Below, piece after piece: positions 5,625-28,794 of a stretch of DNA of 28,794 nt (position 1 is its first letter; each line of letters begins with the position of its first letter). The position numbers were made by a program, and so were the translations under genes. This DNA is from an uncultured Hippea sp. (GTDB lineage Bacteria > Campylobacterota_A > Desulfurellia > JAADFJ01). The stretch covers positions 1 to 28,794 of the forward strand of contig CAJVZA010000018.1 of NCBI GenBank assembly GCA_913009315.1. The letters run 5' to 3'. The notes below the pieces were generated by a model, which saw only the letters and a program-made list of their open reading frames with translations, was not told the origin of the DNA and made no database searches.

Positions 5625-6752
5625 TTATTTGTTAATATAAGTTTTGCTGCATACGGTAAACTTATCTATCTTGATGCGATTGATACTATAACCGATTCCG
5701 GGCTCGGAAGGTACTTTTATTGTTCCATTATCAGCAGTTACTTCAGGTTCGATTATATCTTCATTCCAATAATGTGACGATGGTGCCGTGTCGCCGGGAA
5801 GGATAAAATTGCTCAGCGTTGTCAATGCAATATTGTGAGCCCTTCCTATACCGGATTCGAGCATGCCTCCGCACCAAACCGGAATTTTCTTTTCAGCGCA
5901 ATAATCATGAATTTCTTTTGCTTCAGTTAAACCGCCGACGCGGCCAATTTTAATATTAATAATTTTACAGCTTCCCAATTTTATTGCTTTTCTGGCATCA
6001 CCCAATGAATGAATACTTTCGTCAAGGCAAATTGGAGTGTTGATTTGCGATTGCAATTCGGCATGGTCGATAATATCATCATATCCTAACGGCTGTTCAA
6101 TCATCATTAGATTAAACTCATCCAACCTTCTTAAAATTTCCAGGTCTTTTAGGGTATAAGCGGAATTGGCATCAACCATAAGAGGAATATCGGGAAAGCG
6201 GTCTCTCACCTTTTCGAGTACATCAATATCCCATCCGGGCATAATTTTAATTTTAATTCTTTTATAACCTTCATCGACATAACGATCAATCAGAGATAAT
6301 AAGTGCTCAATGCTATTCTGAATCCCTATGCTGATTCCAACTTCAATTTCATCTTTTTTGCCGCCCAGAGCTTTCGTCAGTGCGATATTGTTTTTTTTGG
6401 CAAATAGGTCCCAAACAGCGGTTTCTAAAGCAGACTTAGCCATATTATTACGTCGGATATGCATAAATCGTTTGCGTATCTCCTCAGGAGATACTATCGG
6501 ATCTTTAAATAGAAACGGAATTAAAAAATCTTCCATAACGCTTTCATTGGTTTTTACCGTTTCCTCGTTGTACCAAGGCGAAAAAATAGCTACCGATTCA
6601 CCCCATCCGCTATTGCCGTCTTCATCTATGGCTTCAACCAATAGAAATTCTTTTTCTTTCAAAGTACCGAAACTTGTAGTAAATGAATTTTTTAAATTCA
6701 TGCATAATTTGCGCATGACGATTCGATTTAACACTGTTTTTTTGCTGTTCAT
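5625..6752 (-). CDS. N-acylamino-acid racemase / o-succinylbenzoate synthase (enolase superfamily)
   Basis: Muconate-lactonizing-subgroup enolase. The catalytic lysines are K169 in RIKIKI and K268 in INIKIG. The Mg2+ ligands are D194 (VDANSAY), E219 (MIEQPL) and D244 (CLDES). The family is promiscuous, catalysing o-succinylbenzoate synthesis (MenC) and/or N-succinylamino-acid racemization. No menaquinone genes lie nearby, while a GNAT acyltransferase and an M20 amidohydrolase lie directly upstream, the context of the Geobacillus-type D-to-L amino acid pathway, so racemase is favoured. The ATG at 6752 is preferred over an in-frame TTG at 6767, because an AAGGAG-type site sits between them. Confidence 0.88.
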
Positions 6753-6850
6753 TTTTTCTCCTTTCAAATATAAAAATATTGTCGTTAATTCATAAATAAT
6801 TATTTGAGTCCTAAATCCGTCTCTTTTGCGTTTTTATAAGACCGGCTTGC

Positions 6851-6878
6851 ACTCTCAATTTGAAACGCTTAGAATTAA
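6851..6878. repeat. Fragment of the 188-bp palindromic element family
   Basis: On the minus strand these 28 bases match 154-181 with only two differences (shared core TTCTAAGCGTTT ... ATTGAGAGT). The outer terminal sequence GGCACTTCTG is missing, so this is a truncated copy in the gap between the GNAT and racemase genes. Confidence 0.7.
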
Positions 6879-6889
6879 TGGTTTTGTTC

Positions 6890-7741
6890 TTATGAACCTA
6901 TAGACAATTTTTCTTTTTTAACAAAAACATAAAAATAAACGGCGTAGCCGGATATACGCAGAATATCCACGGCTGCGTATCCCTCGTTTATTAACATTTT
7001 AAATATTGCTCTTGTGCCAAGCCGCCAGCTTTTTGCCAATTCGGCATCAACTTTCTTAATCTGCTGAAAGTTGCCCGGAATAGGTAAAAACCATATTTCA
7101 TTATCCGTTTTTCGGTCTGCAATATTATGTTCACAATTTTCTGAAATAATAATCGGGAGTCCTTCCTTATTAATATCAGTATGAAGCAGAACTTTATTCT
7201 CATCAAATTTGATTTTGGAAAGCCATGGCTGCTCTTTATTAACATGATTGCTTGCAATCCACCATTCGGCTGTAAAACGATCTGTAGGCAGTCCGTAATT
7301 CAATTTATCAGCCATCGGTCCGTAGCAGTTCTCAATGTAATGAGCCGCGATAGCATGAAGTCTGTGCAAATTTAAATATGCATTAGTGCCTTCAAGGGGA
7401 TCAAACGTCCAATCAATTAAGCTGTAGCCGATATCATTAGCAACTTTCAACTCCATTTCTTTTAACTTCCTGCCTATCCCAAGTTTTCTATAGTTAGGAT
7501 TAACACCCATCTTATGGGAATGCAAATAAACCATCCCGTTTTTATAACCCGGAAAAGCAAATACAAACCCGACCATTTCCCCGCCGATATATGCACCTAT
7601 TGCAATGCCTCCGTTTCTTATTGTGGCAACCGTATCATTAATTGAGGCCGGATTTTTTTCCCATACCATTTGTTCCACTTTCTGCATTGCCTTCATATCT
7701 TCGACTGAGCTTAGTTGTTTTAAGGAAAACGAATTTACCAT
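6890..7741 (-). CDS. GNAT-family acyltransferase (COG3375-like), probable amino-acid N-succinyltransferase
   Basis: About 283 residues. The acyl-CoA binding core lies around residues 50-110: a beta-4 strand (GFVFAFPGY) and then NPNYRKLGIGRKLKEMEL, whose RKLGIGRKL contacts the CoA pyrophosphate. The downstream block DWTFDPLEGTNAYLNLHRL is typical of the COG3375 group. In characterised operons with an N-succinylamino-acid racemase this partner succinylates D-amino acids with succinyl-CoA; that role is inferred here from the neighbours. The start codon lies 4 bp after the stop of the M20 gene, with GGAGG inside the upstream gene's end, which points to translational coupling. Confidence 0.85.
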   Translation of the reverse strand: MVNSFSLKQLSSVEDMKAMQKVEQMVWEKNPASINDTVATIRNGGIAIGAYIGGEMVGFVFAFPGYKNGMVYLHSHKMGVNPNYRKLGIGRKLKEMELKVANDIGYSLIDWTFDPLEGTNAYLNLHRLHAIAAHYIENCYGPMADKLNYGLPTDRFTAEWWIASNHVNKEQPWLSKIKFDENKVLLHTDINKEGLPIIISENCEHNIADRKTDNEIWFLPIPGNFQQIKKVDAELAKSWRLGTRAIFKMLINEGYAAVDILRISGYAVYFYVFVKKEKLSIGS

Positions 7742-7745
7742 ACCG

Positions 7746-8879
7746 TTAAACCTCCGTTTCTTTTTTTAATGTTTTAAGTACGGCCAAGGTTAAAATTTCG
7801 ATGCCGTTTTTAATTGCTCTGTGATCAAATGTCATATTTGGGCTATGGAGTCCCGGCTTCAGGCCGCAGCCGAGACCAAGCATAGTTGCCTTTATAGAAG
7901 GTCGCTTGAGGGCATAAAAATTGAAATCATCACTGCCCGGCGTCAATAAAGGTTTTTCAAGATTATCCTTTCCCAAGACATCCTGAATCGAAACGGACAT
8001 TATTTTTTCAGCTTGCGGAGAGACTTTTGCAGCTGCAACATTAGACTTATCTGTTAATTTAATCTGCACATTGTAATAATCAGCTGTTGCTTTGATTGCT
8101 CTTTTTACTTTATTCATCAGATCCGACATCATTTCGTTTGTCTGCGCTCTTAGATCTAAACTGAATAACGCAGAGCCGGGTATAACATTAGCGCTTTCAC
8201 CTCCGGCTGTGAATTTAGTAATTTTTACAGAATGCGGTACCATAGGATTTAAATGAATGCAATTCAGCTTTTGAACAATCTCGGCGCCGATTTCTATTGA
8301 GTTGGTTCCGAGATGCGGTCTCGCTCCATGTGAATCAATGCCGACAATTTCACCTTCTATCAAAGCGGTGGCGCCATGAATAATCGAAGGAGAAGCTTTG
8401 CCGTTTTTTATTTCCTGGACCGGCCGCAAGTGAACGCCATACAGATAATCGACATCATCAACTATTTTTTTTTCGATCATCTTTAGTGCGCCGCTTCCTT
8501 TTTCTTCAGCCGGTTGAAAAATAAATTTTATTTTTCCGTTCGGCGGGTGCGGCAATCTTTTGAGAGCGAACAAAACACCCAATACCATCGTCATGTGAGC
8601 ATCATGTCCGCAGGAATGATTAGCGCAGAATTTTCCATTTGTATTTTGCCAGAGAGCATCCATATCTGCTCTGACAGCTACAGTGAGATCGCCTTCGCCA
8701 ATTTCGCCCACAATTCCGGTGCAGTCATCAAATGTTTTTACTCTGCAACCGCTTTCTTTCAAATATTTTTGAATGAATCTTGTGGTGTTATATTCCTTCC
8801 AGCTTATTTCGGGATGTTCGTGTAAATGTTTGAAAATTTCATCTATTTCCGGTTGCGATTTTTTAAAGGTTGTTTGCAT
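7746..8879 (-). CDS. M20-family amidohydrolase, probable N-acyl-L-amino-acid deacylase
   Basis: Metallo-aminoacylase/carboxypeptidase of the M20D type. Metal and catalytic sites visible are NHSCGHDAHM (C90, H92, H95), the EE pair in FQPAEEKGSG (about 125-126), the H in YGVHLRP, and the late H in LHSPN. The dimerization insert includes SHGARPH. Length of 377 residues is normal. In this operon it would remove the succinyl group from N-succinyl-L-amino acids, pulling the racemization forward (inference). The ATG at 8879 is preferred over GTG at 8894 because GAGG sits between them at suitable spacing. It is the first gene of the operon. Confidence 0.9.
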   Translation of the reverse strand: MQTTFKKSQPEIDEIFKHLHEHPEISWKEYNTTRFIQKYLKESGCRVKTFDDCTGIVGEIGEGDLTVAVRADMDALWQNTNGKFCANHSCGHDAHMTMVLGVLFALKRLPHPPNGKIKFIFQPAEEKGSGALKMIEKKIVDDVDYLYGVHLRPVQEIKNGKASPSIIHGATALIEGEIVGIDSHGARPHLGTNSIEIGAEIVQKLNCIHLNPMVPHSVKITKFTAGGESANVIPGSALFSLDLRAQTNEMMSDLMNKVKRAIKATADYYNVQIKLTDKSNVAAAKVSPQAEKIMSVSIQDVLGKDNLEKPLLTPGSDDFNFYALKRPSIKATMLGLGCGLKPGLHSPNMTFDHRAIKNGIEILTLAVLKTLKKETEV

Positions 8880-8907
8880 CTGTTTTTTCCTCACAGTTAT
8901 GAATTAT

Positions 8908-9179
8908 CAGCCTGTTGAAAAATATCATTGCGAGCATTTCTTTCCACGTTGCGAGTATTTTTTCCCAGTCATTGCGAGCGCAGCGAAGCAATCTCGTCTT
9001 TGGACTGCCGCGTCGTTTCACTCCTCGCAGTGACGAAAAATAGATGCCATTACAAACATTTCCCTCTGTCATTGCGAGCGCAGCGAAGCAATCTCAGTTT
9101 CTTCAGTGTATCATAGGCATCCTGCCTGTGGTGAGATCGCTTCGCACAATGACAAATAGGAGTTTTTCAACAGACTCTT
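8908..9179. repeat. MITE-like inverted-repeat element with CATTGCGAGC cores
   Basis: The element starts CAGCCTGTTGAAAAA and ends TTTTTCAACAGACTCTT, which are inverted repeats. Inside are several copies of the core CATTGCGAGCGCAGCGAAGC followed by AATCTC, in both orientations. The same ends and core occur at 26530-26655, and a fragment lies at 11003-11084. There is no credible gene inside. Elements with this core are common in many uncultivated bacteria; the mobilising enzyme is not identifiable here. Confidence 0.8.
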
Positions 9180-9644
9180 ATTATCTGATGTTAGAATTTT
9201 AAATTTATAAATCAATCGGCCTCAGGATATCTCATCGGTTTTAATCATATTCAGATTTGTTGAAACACAGTCATATTTTATATCGACCTCCCTTTTTTTC
9301 TTAAGAGTGCCTCCGCTAATCCGTATGTTTCTTTAGTTTCTATGCTGCAAATTCGCATTATAGACAGCTGTTGTCATATAGAGGCATAACCGATTATACT
9401 TTGCATGCTATTATAACAAGAACGCTTATTTTTAGCAATTCAATAATTCCTGCATGTCCTTGGTATGTACGGATTAATCGAACTTTGATATTTTTGCTCC
9501 TTTGGCCGACTCATAGAGTTCCCTTCTTAATTTGTTCCGTACAAGTCCGGATATGATAAAATTTGCCGTCACGTTGAATGCGGTTCTATCGGATTTGGTT
9601 CGTTTTAGATCAGCACATTGCTCCGCAATCATCTGTCTGTCTGC
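9180..9644. other. Gene-free stretch downstream of the DUF2628 gene
   Basis: I see no gene here. Open frames at 9371-9556 and 9532-9753 lack ribosome binding sites and family resemblance, and the second is antisense to the DUF2628 gene. No clear terminator or repeat stands out. Confidence 0.5.
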
Positions 9645-19219: not shown

Positions 19220-19240
19220 TTTCCACCTACGAGGTGGAAA
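19220..19240. repeat. REP palindrome directly upstream of the RAYT gene
   Basis: Same arms with the centre inverted relative to the other copies (TACGA rather than TCGTA). Followed by ACAGGAATAT, the 3' flank also found at the other copies. It ends 20 bp before the AAGGAGG of the transposase, so it would form a hairpin in the 5' untranslated region. Confidence 0.88.
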
Positions 19241-19275
19241 TATGGAAACAGGAATATAAAAAGGAGGGGGAAAAT

Positions 19276-19929
19276 ATGAGCATAAAAAGACAGCTTGTTG
19301 TTGGGAATCTTTATCATATTCTCACCAAAAGCATAGCAGGGTATCAGATATTCAGATTTGATACGGATTATGAGCGAATGTTGGAAATGATGCAGTATTA
19401 TACTTACGAAGATGTGTCGGTTAAGTTTTCCTATTATCATAAATTTAAGGACAATAAGCGCTCTAAAAATATTGTTGATTTTTCAAATTCGGATAAGCTT
19501 ATAGATATAATAGCCTATTGTTTGATGCCGACTCATATCCATTTTTTATTAACGCCTTTAAAAGAAAATGGTGTTTCCGTATATATGAAAAATTTGCTGA
19601 ACAGCTACACGCGCTATTTCAACACAAGAAACAACAGAAAAGGTCCTCTATGGCAAGGAAGATTTAAAAGTGTTTTGGTGGAAAATGACGAACAGCTTAT
19701 TCATTTGACAAGGTATATTCATCTAAATCCGACATCAAGCGGTATTAGTGATCGCCCAGAGGACTGGCAATATTCATCTTACAAGGAATTTATCAACAAA
19801 AGCGATAAACAGCTTTGCAATTTTCAAAATTATATCGATATGATCTCTGAAAGCTATAAAAAATTTGTGGAATCGCGAAAAGAATACCAAAAAGAACTAT
19901 CTATAATAAAGCATTTGATTCCAAAATGA
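19276..19929 (+). CDS. REP-associated tyrosine transposase (RAYT, Y1/HUH family)
   Basis: A 217-residue single-strand DNA transposase of the IS200/IS605-like Y1 group. The HUH motif is LMPTHIHFLL (H87, H89). The catalytic tyrosine is most likely Y114 (or Y111) in NSYTRYFN. Typical blocks follow: GPLWQGRFKSVLV, YIHLNPTSSG and WQYSSYKEF. The ATG at 19276 has AAGGAGG 8 nt upstream; an in-frame GTG at 19234 lies inside the REP palindrome and is unlikely. REP palindromes at 19141, 19220 and 19951 bracket the gene as expected for a RAYT with its own repeats. A fourth copy interrupts the CRISPR array at 10953. Confidence 0.93.
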   Translation: MSIKRQLVVGNLYHILTKSIAGYQIFRFDTDYERMLEMMQYYTYEDVSVKFSYYHKFKDNKRSKNIVDFSNSDKLIDIIAYCLMPTHIHFLLTPLKENGVSVYMKNLLNSYTRYFNTRNNRKGPLWQGRFKSVLVENDEQLIHLTRYIHLNPTSSGISDRPEDWQYSSYKEFINKSDKQLCNFQNYIDMISESYKKFVESRKEYQKELSIIKHLIPK

Positions 19930-26019: not shown

Positions 26020-26043
26020 AATGTCTAATGTTGAGACGCGACC
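26020..26043. repeat. 24-bp inverted repeat, left copy, flanking the cassette island
   Basis: Perfect inverted match to 28539-28562. It reads AATGTCTAATGTTGAGACGC then GACC. From base 26022 it starts TG, and the partner ends CA, as insertion-sequence ends often do; the shape recalls IS21-family ends, but that is tentative. A related piece (GAGATGCGACCTCAGACTAC) is at 26655-26674. Confidence 0.75.
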
Positions 26044-26160
26044 CCAGACTACGACCCTTACTGCGTGCCTTATTTAAAAACGAAGGATGAGATTGTATTA
26101 AAAACTGTATTTCCTGATAGAAGATTTAAAAAGTTTGCGGGAGGCAAGAATGATGAATAA
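26035..26160 (+). pseudogene. Truncated toxin-like gene, C-terminal fragment
   Basis: The frame gives PDYDPYCVPYLKTKDEIVLK and TVFPDRRFKKFAGGKNDE, then TAA overlapping the antitoxin ATG by about 8-11 bp. That overlap, and toxin-before-antitoxin order, is usual for small type II pairs with CopG-like antitoxins. An in-frame TGA at 26032-26034, within the inverted repeat, cuts it off, so the N-terminal part is gone. Toxin family not determined. Confidence 0.55.
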
Positions 26161-26443
26161 AAGGCAAGAGTTTAAATATATTGATAACGAAGAAAAAGAA
26201 ATTGTAGAGTCTTTAAAGGATATTGATGTAAATTCAATTGAAAACGATGCCAAACATATAAAACAATTAGAGAAATCCGCAAAAGATTATATAGCAAAGC
26301 AGGACAAAACAATAACTCTAAGAATATCATCAGATGATCTGAATAAACTGAAATCAGTCGCAGCAAAAAAAGGTCTGAGATATCAAACGTTCATTAAAAG
26401 CATTATACATCAGCATATTTCTGATTATACAGATGCTGTATAG
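26150..26443 (+). CDS. CopG/ribbon-helix-helix-like antitoxin
   Basis: About 97 residues. The N-terminal half is acidic and helix-prone (FKYIDNEEKEIVESLKDI), typical of the toxin-binding arm. The C-terminal KTITLRISSDDLNKLKSVAA followed by GLRYQTFIKSIIHQ is a ribbon-helix-helix-like DNA-binding part of the CopG antitoxin group. GGGAGG (26139-26144) supports ATG 26150 or 26153 rather than the TTG at 26135. Its toxin partner upstream is truncated, so it is an orphan antitoxin. A perfect palindrome lies 68 bp downstream. Confidence 0.82.
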   Translation: MMNKRQEFKYIDNEEKEIVESLKDIDVNSIENDAKHIKQLEKSAKDYIAKQDKTITLRISSDDLNKLKSVAAKKGLRYQTFIKSIIHQHISDYTDAV

Positions 26444-26510: not shown

Positions 26511-26527
26511 GTTCACAAATTGTGAAC
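26511..26527. promoter_or_regulatory. 17-nt perfect palindrome, candidate operator
   Basis: GTTCACAA-A-TTGTGAAC is a perfect 8-bp dyad around one base. It lies between the antitoxin gene and the inverted-repeat element. It could be a binding site of a helix-turn-helix regulator; no gene start follows closely, so its target is unknown. Confidence 0.4.
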
Positions 26528-26529
26528 TT

Positions 26530-26655
26530 AAGAGCCTGTTGAAAAACTCCTATTTGTCATTGTAAGCACCGAAAAATGCGTGGTAATCCTTTTATTGTCA
26601 GTATTTTTTGAGATTGCTTCGCTGCGCTCGCAATGACCTTTATCAACAGGCTCTT
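26530..26655. repeat. MITE-like inverted-repeat element, compact copy
   Basis: Terminal inverted repeats AAGAGCCTGTTGAAAA (26530-26545) and TTATCAACAGGCTCTT (26640-26655). The interior holds the inverse of the CATTGCGAGCGCAGCGAAGC core. At 126 bp this is the cleanest copy in the window and defines the element's ends. It sits immediately before the integrase remnant and may have helped to disrupt it. Confidence 0.85.
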
Positions 26656-26679
26656 GAGATGCGACCTCAGACTACATTT

Positions 26680-26810
26680 CATTTGCTTGAATCAGGCTAT
26701 GATATATGATATAGGAACAATACAAGAATTATTGGGACATAAAAATGATTTATACTCATGTAATTAATCAACAAAGAGGGAAAAGGGTAAGAAGCCCTGC
26801 AGATTCTTAA
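26680..26810 (+). pseudogene. Integron-type tyrosine integrase (IntI-like), decayed C-terminus
   Basis: Three segments in shifted frames rebuild an integrase end: HLLESGYDI (26680-26706), TIQELLGHK (26717-26743) and MIYTHVINQQRGKRVRSPAD followed by S and a stop (26745-26810). The GH of the catalytic box and the tyrosine nucleophile in IYTHV are visible, and the RVRSPAD tail is typical of IntI. Frameshifts and a lost stretch of a few codons between LLGHK and MIY make it non-functional, and everything upstream is missing. The gene points toward the cassettes, the orientation seen in reverse-integrase integrons such as that of Treponema denticola. Confidence 0.8.
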
Positions 26811-26986
26811 TTTAGTTGCCCAAAGGAGCAACATATGCAAAATAAAAAAGAAGGAAAGACATGAGTAATTTAACTAATAATAAACAGTTAAATAAAACAA
26901 GCAGTATAAGTTTAGGTAGCCGAGAAGAGCAACAACTGCTATTTTCATTAGTATACCTAATCTTATATTATGTGTGAAAGGGAGAG
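26811..26986 (+). other. Spacer between integrase remnant and first cassette, where attI would lie
   Basis: No gene. GTTAAAT at 26887-26893 fits the GTTRRRY core at which cassettes insert and could mark the attI/first-cassette junction; other near-matches exist, so this is weak. The ribosome binding site GGGAGAG of the VOC gene is at its end. Confidence 0.35.
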
Positions 26987-27379
26987 ATGGTGAAAGTTTC
27001 CGCTATTGATCATATTGTGCTTACGGTTAAGGACATTGATACGACTGTCCAGTTTTATGAATCAGTATTGGGTATGAGCAAAGAAACCTTTGGAGAAGGA
27101 AGGGTTGCATTAAAGTTCGGTAAACAAAAAATCAATTTACATGAGTATGGTAATGAATTTGAGCCAAAGGCAAATAATCCAAAACCAGGCTCAGAGGATT
27201 TGTGTTTTATTACTGACACTGAATTAGCAATTGCAATGGCTTATGTAAAAAATAGAGGCATTGGGATTATTGAGGGACCTGTTAAACGAACAGGGGCATT
27301 AGGACCAATTATTTCCTTTTACTTTCGTGATCCAGACGGTAATTTAATCGAAGTAGCAAACTATAAGAAAAACACATAG
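26987..27379 (+). CDS. VOC-family (glyoxalase/dioxygenase-like) protein, cassette gene 1
   Basis: A 130-residue vicinal-oxygen-chelate protein with two beta-alpha-beta-beta-beta modules. Module 1 is AIDHIVLTVKDIDTTVQFYE ... KINLHEYG and module 2 is CFITDTELAIAMAYVKNRG ... YFRDPDGNLIEVANY. Candidate metal ligands are the H of IDHI, the H of NLHEYG and the E of LIEV. Substrate is unknown; relatives include antibiotic-resistance and detoxification enzymes. ATG 26987 follows GGGAGAG closely. Its stop lies at the left edge of attC1, as in a gene cassette. Confidence 0.88.
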   Translation: MVKVSAIDHIVLTVKDIDTTVQFYESVLGMSKETFGEGRVALKFGKQKINLHEYGNEFEPKANNPKPGSEDLCFITDTELAIAMAYVKNRGIGIIEGPVKRTGALGPIISFYFRDPDGNLIEVANYKKNT

Positions 27380-27445
27380 CAAGGCGCTACACCGGACGGC
27401 AATTATGCTCCGCTCCATTGTCACCGGTGAGTTTTGCTGTTAGCT
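27374..27445. other. attC recombination site 1
   Basis: AGCAAGGCGCTACACCGGAC and, in its second half, TCACCGGTGAGTTTTGCTG then GTTAGCT (27439-27445) match the classical attC pattern: an imperfect palindrome with ACCGG / CCGGT arms, a central loop and the 3' R' box GTTRRRY. The left R'' box is slightly off (TAGC instead of TAAC). Length about 72 bp. Confidence 0.88.
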
Positions 27446-27523
27446 CGCTCATGCGGCATTGCACGAGTGATGGAATGAGAGCACAACACCAATGCCAATT
27501 CTGATGAACAGGAGGAATCATTA

Positions 27524-27880
27524 ATGAATGAAAAGCTTAGCCAACAACTTTTCGAGCTTGAACCGAATATCCGCTATGTCGCTGTGAACCAAAACGGCCG
27601 GATCGTGGAGATGGAGCAAAGTCCGCAGCACCCTACTTGCAATCCGCACGAAACCGACCGAATGGAGGAGATGATTGTTAATCCCATTGTGCTGGAAATC
27701 ACAAGACGGCGTGGCAACATCGACATGAACGGAATCCGCTATGTAGTCATCAAGTACGGCACGCAGTACCAGTTGCTCATGCCCTACAAAGAGGGTCACG
27801 TTTCCATCGGTATAGAATTGGAGGACGACCCGAGAGAGATCGCACGCAAGGTGGCAAAGTACCTGAAGCTGCCAATATGA
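27524..27880 (+). CDS. Roadblock/LC7-like protein, cassette gene 2
   Basis: A 118-residue protein with GGAGG 8 nt before its ATG. The pattern RYVAVNQNGRIVEMEQS, a polar loop with two histidines and a cysteine (QHPTCNPHETD), then a helix and RYVVIKYGTQYQLLMPYKEG and VSIGIELEDDPREIARKV, suggests a roadblock/longin-like alpha/beta fold related to DUF6659-type archaeal proteins; this is a fold impression only. The gene is visibly richer in G+C (about half) than its neighbours, which fits a cassette of different origin. It lies between attC1 and attC2. Confidence 0.75.
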   Translation: MNEKLSQQLFELEPNIRYVAVNQNGRIVEMEQSPQHPTCNPHETDRMEEMIVNPIVLEITRRRGNIDMNGIRYVVIKYGTQYQLLMPYKEGHVSIGIELEDDPREIARKVAKYLKLPI

Positions 27881-27899
27881 GACAAATCCGCAAACGGCC

Positions 27900-27973
27900 G
27901 GCTAACCAATCATTTGAGAATAACCGGTTTCCCGCCGGTCGCTCCAAACCAGCCCCTCAATTCTTCGTTATAC
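27900..27973. other. attC recombination site 2
   Basis: Starts GGCTAACCAATCATTTGAG (R'' plus L''), has a central CCGGTTTCCCGCCGG hairpin, and ends CTCAATTCTTCGTTATAC (L' plus R', with GTTATAC at 27967-27973). Arms are complementary with a bulge. About 74 bp. Confidence 0.85.
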
Positions 27974-27998
27974 CCATAGAAAATAAGGAGGTAAATTC

Positions 27999-28331
27999 AT
28001 GAACCAAGTGTTTCCGGAACCGATTAGAAACCTTCCGAAAGCTGATATACCGCTTGACGGAATAACCGCATATCTGTCGCAATCAGACACTCATCAGATA
28101 TTATTCATGCAGTTTGAAGAAGATGTTAATTTACCTGAGCATTCTCATGCTGCCCAAATGGGAATAGTATTGGAAGGAAAGATTGATTTGGTAATCGGTG
28201 GTGAAAAACAATGTTTTACAAAGGGAGATCGGTACTATATTCCCGAAGGTGTGAAGCATTCTGCTAAAATACATGCAGGATACGCAGATGTGACGTTTTT
28301 TAATGAGCCGAATCGCTATTCAAAGAAATAA
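27999..28331 (+). CDS. Small cupin-domain protein, cassette gene 3
   Basis: A 110-residue single cupin_2 barrel. Motif 1 is LPEHSHAAQMGIVLEGKIDL (residues 44-63), with metal-ligand histidines in EHSH. Motif 2 is KGDRYYIPEGVKHSAKIHAG, with a further histidine. It may bind a metal and a small ligand; substrate unknown. AAGGAGG lies 8 nt before the ATG. It is bounded by attC2 upstream and a partial attC downstream, so it is a cassette gene. Confidence 0.87.
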   Translation: MNQVFPEPIRNLPKADIPLDGITAYLSQSDTHQILFMQFEEDVNLPEHSHAAQMGIVLEGKIDLVIGGEKQCFTKGDRYYIPEGVKHSAKIHAGYADVTFFNEPNRYSKK

Positions 28332-28336
28332 CATCT

Positions 28337-28358
28337 GGCATAACAAATCATTTCAACG
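28337..28358. other. attC site 3, partial
   Basis: GGCATAACAAATCATTTCAA matches the 5' half (R''-L'') of a typical attC. The complementary 3' half with GTTATGC is not found in the next 60 bases; GGCTAACGCCGCTGCTAAA at 28362 looks like the start of another such site. The cassette boundary has therefore been rearranged. Confidence 0.65.
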
Positions 28359-28408
28359 TATGGCTAACGCCGCTGCTAAATTCGATCGTATACTCGAAAG
28401 GAGATAAG

Positions 28409-28528
28409 ATGATAGTTAAATCAAAAGAAGCAAAAAGAAATAGTTTTTATGGGGTTGATTTTGTTGTATTGTCGCATGGGCAGAAATCAATGGTTACTAA
28501 AATGCTATATAAATCAGATGACAAATAG
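28409..28528 (+). pseudogene. Truncated cupin-like cassette gene
   Basis: ATG 28409 behind GGAG opens 39 codons (MIVKSKEAKRNSFYGVDFVV ... KSMVTKMLYKSDDK) and then a stop. The sequence resembles the N-terminal strands of another cupin family, whose metal-binding HSHP motif should follow right after KSDDK but is missing. The break lies about 10 bp before the 24-bp inverted repeat at 28539, so the gene was cut by that event. Confidence 0.6.
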
Positions 28529-28538
28529 GAAAAATAGC

Positions 28539-28562
28539 GGTCGCGTCTCAACATTAGACATT
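28539..28562. repeat. 24-bp inverted repeat, right copy, flanking the cassette island
   Basis: Perfect inverted match to 26020-26043. Immediately beyond, the minus strand has a 25-codon open tail (28554 to about 28634, ending LEEKRNV and TAA inside this repeat), possibly debris of another gene. No target-site duplication is visible next to the two copies. Confidence 0.75.
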
Positions 28563-28670
28563 TCTCTTTTCTTCTAATGCTTTTACTATTGTTCTGACCG
28601 TCTCTGAAACTATTCTATATTTTTCAATCTTTTTTTAAAATTTCCCAACAGCTTTAGAAGCGGCAGCATA

Positions 28671-28702
28671 ATGAGACCACTGCACAATAAGCAGATTCAC
28701 AG
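28671..28702. repeat. Inverted copy of the IS1634-like transposase tail
   Basis: Matches 390-421 perfectly in the opposite orientation (32 bp, starting ATGAGACCACTGCACAATAA). The rest of the transposase is absent on both sides. It leads directly into the terminal 88-bp repeat, so the two may belong to one mobile element. Confidence 0.75.
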
Positions 28703-28706
28703 CTTT

Positions 28707-28794
28707 TTATGAGGTTTTCTATAGACAAGGCAAACTTCTGAAGGACTAACGGGTTAATTCAAAGAAGTTTAACGAAGTATATGGGAAACCTCAT
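28707..28794. repeat. 88-bp structured direct repeat, right copy
   Basis: Identical to 1-88. See the left copy for its nested inverted repeats. Confidence 0.9.

Follow-up and report, generated by a model that had tools for sequence, protein, structure and literature searches.

A probable fossil chromosomal integron in an uncultured Hippea sp., with an integrase remnant on the strand of its cassettes

Integrons are bacterial gene-collecting platforms. Close to one end of a contig from an uncultured Hippea sp. (GenBank assembly GCA_913009315.1, contig CAJVZA010000018.1), the remains of a recombinase gene lie upstream of several small genes on the same strand. Are these the remains of an integron and, if so, of one in which the integrase originally ran toward its cassettes? 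The window analysed here is the whole stretch of 28,794 nucleotides. Positions 26679-28538 very probably represent a fossil chromosomal integron locus, made up of the end of an IntI pseudogene (~42 codons) and four captured cassettes. The features of the locus and of the repeats that flank it are as follows.

26020-26043, + strand: copy of the 24-nt inverted repeat AATGTCTAATGTTGAGACGCGACC, left boundary of the block; perfect inverted pair with 28539-28562
26527-26658, no strand assigned: MITE-like repeat with terminal inverted repeats, adjoining the integrase remnant on its 5' side
26679-26809, + strand: IntI C-terminus remnant, pseudogene with two frame-breaking indels (translations; TIGR02249; IntI profile)
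26887-26893, + strand: weak candidate attI core GTTAAAT, between the remnant and cassette 1
26987-27379, + strand: cassette 1, protein of the glyoxalase/bleomycin-resistance superfamily, 130 aa, frame intact (PF00903, 48.8 bits)
27374-27445, + strand: attC site 1, overlapping the cassette 1 stop codon; R'' is TAGC, not TAAC (R3 48.8 bits, E 6.5e-9)
27524-27880, + strand: cassette 2, orphan protein, 118 aa, frame intact (composition; no family match)
27900-27973, + strand: attC site 2, ~20 nt after the stop of cassette 2 (R1 23.8 bits, E 0.0056; R3 17.7 bits)
27999-28331, + strand: cassette 3, cupin-domain protein, 110 aa, frame intact (PF07883, 36.2 bits)
28338-28393, + strand: decayed attC site 3 of reduced length, beginning 7 nt past the cupin stop (R1 24.3 bits, E 0.0044; R3 16.7 bits)
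28410-28529, + strand: cassette 4, 39-codon 5' gene fragment ending just before the right-hand repeat (sequence)
28539-28562, - strand: inverted copy of the 24-nt repeat, right boundary of the block; perfect pair with 26020-26043

In translation, three frames at 26679-26809 read HLLESGYDI, IGTIQELLGHK and MIYTHVINQQRGKRVRSPADS (the third-frame part is also given as MIYTHVINQQRGKRVRSPAD), amounting to 42 codons from the C-terminal end of IntI. The reading frame is disrupted twice, by a duplicated 7-nt stretch and by the loss of ~14 nt, and the intI remnant is thus a pseudogene. A joined reading of the three frames served for family and profile comparisons only. The top NCBIfam family for this reading is TIGR02249 (integron integrase) with 28.3 bits, against 16.2 bits for XerC. 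When compared with purpose-built profiles, it scored 61 bits with diverse IntI, 50 bits with Campylobacterales IntI and 35 bits with non-IntI tyrosine recombinases. An earlier note on this DNA had recognised an IntI-type integrase C-terminus upstream of the cassettes and proposed an IntI profile run on the region; the scores agree with that assignment, and, across the 42 residues available for sequence comparison, the remnant resembles IntI more closely than it does Xer or phage recombinases. Its tail is like the canonical NRGGKGVRSPAD of intact IntI from other lineages, and an RVRSPAD-type tail was not seen among the non-IntI tyrosine recombinases inspected. The gene segment for the IntI-specific patch is missing from the remnant, and the locus holds no functional intI with that patch, 26679-26809 being a frameshifted scrap. 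Directly 5' of the remnant lies the 20-nt motif GAGATGCGACCTCAGACTAC (26656-26675), which has a near-identical copy at 26033 and is probably part of a repeat rather than of intI.

Two covariance models were used for attC sites. Model R1 was built from 30 reference attC (Campylobacterales, Methylococcales and plasmid integrons), none from the source genome, and was run over the 28.8-kb window unfiltered and on both strands. Model R3 was built from 20 reference attC, a GC-rich set that includes IMG/VR sites and three attC of the source genome (C3, C23, C69) and none from the window. E-values for attC are rough, given the short calibration. A hand-made attC scanner was dropped as unspecific, and the covariance models took its place.

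The two attC sites named beforehand, at 27374-27445 and 27900-27973, were both matched at their exact coordinates by models that contain no window sequence, and a third was added at 28338-28393. Site 1, with its altered R'', was missed by R1. Besides sites 2 and 3, R1 gave no match above 10.1 bits on either strand of the unfiltered window, and with R3 the score following those of the three sites was 8.7 bits. No Rfam family matches the window attC sites. All three lie on the + strand within ~1 kb, and each coincides with a stop codon or follows one closely, the usual position of attC in integrons. Site 1 belongs to a GC-rich family of 70-72-nt attC represented by a Methylococcales symbiont (L045) and by IMG/VR contigs (L190, L193), a family that also takes in the sites on C3, C23 and C69 and the first site on C1.

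Some of these sites, taken singly, might suggest chance hairpins or terminators among ordinary genes. Sites 2 and 3 are modest matches (only ~24 bits, E ~0.005), and site 3 did not fold. Site 1, however, has an E-value of 6.5e-9 and shares 59 of 72 positions with an attC of known type on an IMG/VR contig (82% identity; z ~13 against shuffles), which refutes such a reading for this site. Moreover, the three sites follow stop codons on the same strand, and everything else in the window scores below 11 bits (R1, R3). We therefore regard chance hairpins as extremely improbable. In bottom-strand folding, the reference attC of L193 and the C3 site reach the canonical form. Window site 2 keeps its outer TAAC/GTTA pairs. 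Site 1, which differs from the rest of its attC family by substitutions in R'' and the outer stem, has lost the outer arm and misses the canonical fold, as does site 3, for which single-strand folding was no better than that of shuffled sequences. Sites 1 and 3 fall short of a functional attC, in which R and L boxes are paired and bases are extrahelical.

Downstream of the remnant there are, as the earlier note had described, small same-strand genes separated by attC; we count four cassettes, and an attC closes each of the first three. Cassette 2 has no Pfam/NCBIfam match and no counterpart in 385 other genomes. Its G+C content (50%) is unlike that of the remaining window (39%) and was thus counted in favour of a captured cassette. 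Cassette 4 is cupin-like by eye, with no Pfam match of its own. The same cassettes were not found elsewhere between attC sites (viral contigs; cassette 2 in the 385 genomes; the cupin in 24 relatives), so these particular cassettes are only putatively mobile. The spacer from the remnant to cassette 1 is 177 bp long (26810-26986), and no repeat copy was detected in it. It contains a single GTTRRRY, where ~0.14 would be expected by chance, and this is the candidate attI core.

The established integron mechanism would imply that each cassette was captured through its attC: IntI would have acted on the folded bottom strand of this site, recombining it with attI or with an adjacent attC. The integrase would then have decayed while the cassette genes persisted, with frames intact in three of the four. 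As far as sequence can tell, the local integron system is probably dead, since only a scrap of the integrase is left, attC 1 lacks the R'' core, attC 3 is shortened and folding is poor; the decayed state proposed previously is thus upheld. Compared with a complete integron, the attC array behind small same-strand genes is present and a functional intI is absent.

Three attC in ~1 kb with no functional intI also describe an integron remnant or CALIN, a cluster of attC sites lacking integron-integrase (IntegronFinder, PMC9024848). As in a CALIN, small genes on one strand are separated by attC and there is no functional intI nearby; unlike a CALIN, the window locus retains a recognisable intI scrap beside its cassettes, and its attC are decayed. 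The recombinase scrap and the cassettes might nevertheless be unrelated, an integrase-less cassette cluster having landed by other recombinase debris. The attC sites on C1 and C23 likewise have no detected intI nearby. Here, however, the debris is of IntI type and only 177 bp from the first cassette, and chance adjacency is unlikely; we consider unrelated neighbours improbable and retain the fossil integron as our reading.

The block is bounded by repeats. Further copies of the 24-nt repeat are present on C26, C54 and C29, making it a genome repeat family; on C29 the family forms a short hairpin element, and its copies in the window are at 26020-26043 and 28539-28660. The genome contains roughly a dozen sequences related to the MITE-like repeat. 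Repeated sequence runs from the right-hand 24-nt repeat to the contig end, and window positions 28666-28794 and 1-88 carry a repeat with dozens of genome copies that is also found at many contig ends and probably explains the contig breaks. Since the flanking repeats are common to dozens of other contigs, the block belongs to the source genome. Other genes in the window include one resembling a REP-associated tyrosine transposase (19234-19929) and a CopG/BrnA-type antitoxin gene (26085-26443), upstream of which the apparent last codons of a BrnT-type toxin are cut by the left-hand repeat.

The earlier note had taken the organism to show no integron apart from this locus. This is not the case: IntI remnants are found on C14, C69 and C3, and a search for further attC gave sites on C1, C3, C23 and C69. 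The source genome is a draft (~88% complete), and the genome-wide attC counts are lower bounds from a prefiltered search, in which R1 missed two window sites seen in the full scan. With R1, which contains no source-genome sites, C23 scored 27.6 bits, C3 21.6 bits and C69 20.2 bits; R3 scores of these three are high by construction. The sites on C1 scored 52.6 and 38 bits with R3. On C14 there is a near-complete IntI pseudogene (G000:C14:32253-33195; L014 8251-9208, - strand) of 240 bits with an interrupted reading, and its contig ends just upstream of the IntI N-terminus, the side on which one would look for a cassette array. An IntI fragment on C69 retains part of the IntI-specific patch, and the IntI scrap on C3 lies on the strand opposite its cassettes, the conventional layout. 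An intact intI had also been sought elsewhere in the genome; the IntI-specific region was found, in the C14 pseudogene, and an intact gene was not, with no match over the TIGR02249 cut-off. The locus is one among several scattered integron remnants in this genome.

The attC cluster on C1 (G000:C1:47393-48789; L209 ~6700-9200) contains genes that by eye resemble toxin-antitoxin pairs (MazEF-like, ParE/RelE-like), and a HicAB-like pair was named by eye on C69; toxin-antitoxin pairs are common integron cargo. On C23 (L159), the reading frame from position 3 contains FFFNDTATTEIYTLSLHDALPIS, which we take to be the translation of an Illumina adapter, and this contig is possibly chimeric at its start. 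A recombinase scrap on C50 was rejected as an IntI remnant (non-IntI 40 bits against IntI 29 bits), a scrap on G001:C45 looks to be of the same kind, and one on C2 is very short, too short to assign as IntI or not.

Across the class, R3 at E 0.05 or better has matches in 11 of 25 genomes, including seven in the same-genus G001, and no surveyed genome of the class has an intI over the family cut-off. In G015, of the same class, an intI N-terminus stands at a contig edge with attC upstream on the opposite strand, again the conventional layout. The closest kin found of the C14 pseudogene are IntI from chromosomal integrons of Campylobacterales (Sulfurimonas, Sulfurovum; L040-L117), with 72% identity in the best segment. 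These integrons are conventional in orientation where the array is visible and have AT-rich attC; the tail of their IntI is KSPLDF, against RVRSPAD in the window remnant.

The layout at the window locus is different. As it stands today, the intI remnant lies upstream of the cassettes and on the same + strand across 26679-28538. The earlier note proposed a reverse-type integron: the same-strand geometry holds, and an original reverse type is plausible but unproven (42 codons, AU p ~0.5). Such an arrangement has precedents, since Treponema integrons are reverse (PMC3607928) and Spirochaetota IntI generally are too (PMC9668308). As in the reverse integrons of Treponema (PMC3607928, PMC7691350), intI is upstream on the cassette strand; unlike them, it is a 42-codon pseudogene, attI is only a weak candidate, and AU tests neither assign the remnant to a reverse lineage nor exclude it from one.

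Orientation was also surveyed, as read from coordinates, for intact IntI from diverse genomes (L212-L251). By the position of attC, 12 are conventional and four reverse (G368, G217, G226, G231), the latter with attC downstream on the same strand. Contig breaks within 800 bp of intI occur upstream in 7 of 40 and downstream in 9 of 40, which a repetitive array would explain. In a quick tree, a 14-member IntI clade (SH-aLRT 98) comprises three of the reverse cases, the nine downstream breaks and two unassigned members; the fourth reverse case, G368, falls outside it. Reverse integrons thus seem to fall mostly within a single IntI clade. With 42 residues, the window remnant is too short to be placed in a tree: AU tests gave p 0.50 for the reverse clade, and 0.59 and 0.61 when it was grouped with other clades. 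Its closest pairwise matches do not agree, L161 being outside the reverse clade and L170 and L189 inside.

Taken as contiguous, the sequence would be most simply read as a reverse-type integron, with the integrase C-terminus pointing at the cassettes. We put a true reverse integron as in Treponema, whose integrase originally ran toward attI and cassettes, at close to an even chance: the same-strand order continues across sequence with no detected repeats, reverse integrons are real, and three of the four surveyed cases fall in one supported clade, while AU tests that do not place the remnant, the mixed matches and the single weak attI candidate count against it. Alternatively, the integron might have been conventional, and a later inversion or deletion would have brought the C-terminal part of the integrase onto the strand of the cassettes. 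The remnant is tiny, the genome is rich in short repeats that occur in either orientation, with two such repeats standing at the block edges, and the C3 remnant, the Campylobacterales integrons related to C14 and G015 are all conventional. Against this, no repeat copy was detected at 26810-26986, and the event would need a repeat-free junction; we give this history a little less than an even chance. The unbroken spacer without detected repeats plausibly favours, if slightly, an original reverse orientation.

Decayed integrons with retained cassettes are already known, as are reverse integrons; the host lineage is new, and a second, reverse-type integron in this lineage would possibly be new as well, if real. 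Somewhat below even is our estimate that a reverse-type integron was once present in the class independently of the Campylobacterales type on C14, at least two integron lineages having entered and died in one genome with their cassettes kept. The tie of reverse orientation to one IntI clade could be tested with larger data. With no integrase over the cut-off and attC in 11 of 25 genomes, integrons appear to arrive, die and leave cassettes in this small class, a lineage suited to studying how cassettes outlive their integrase.
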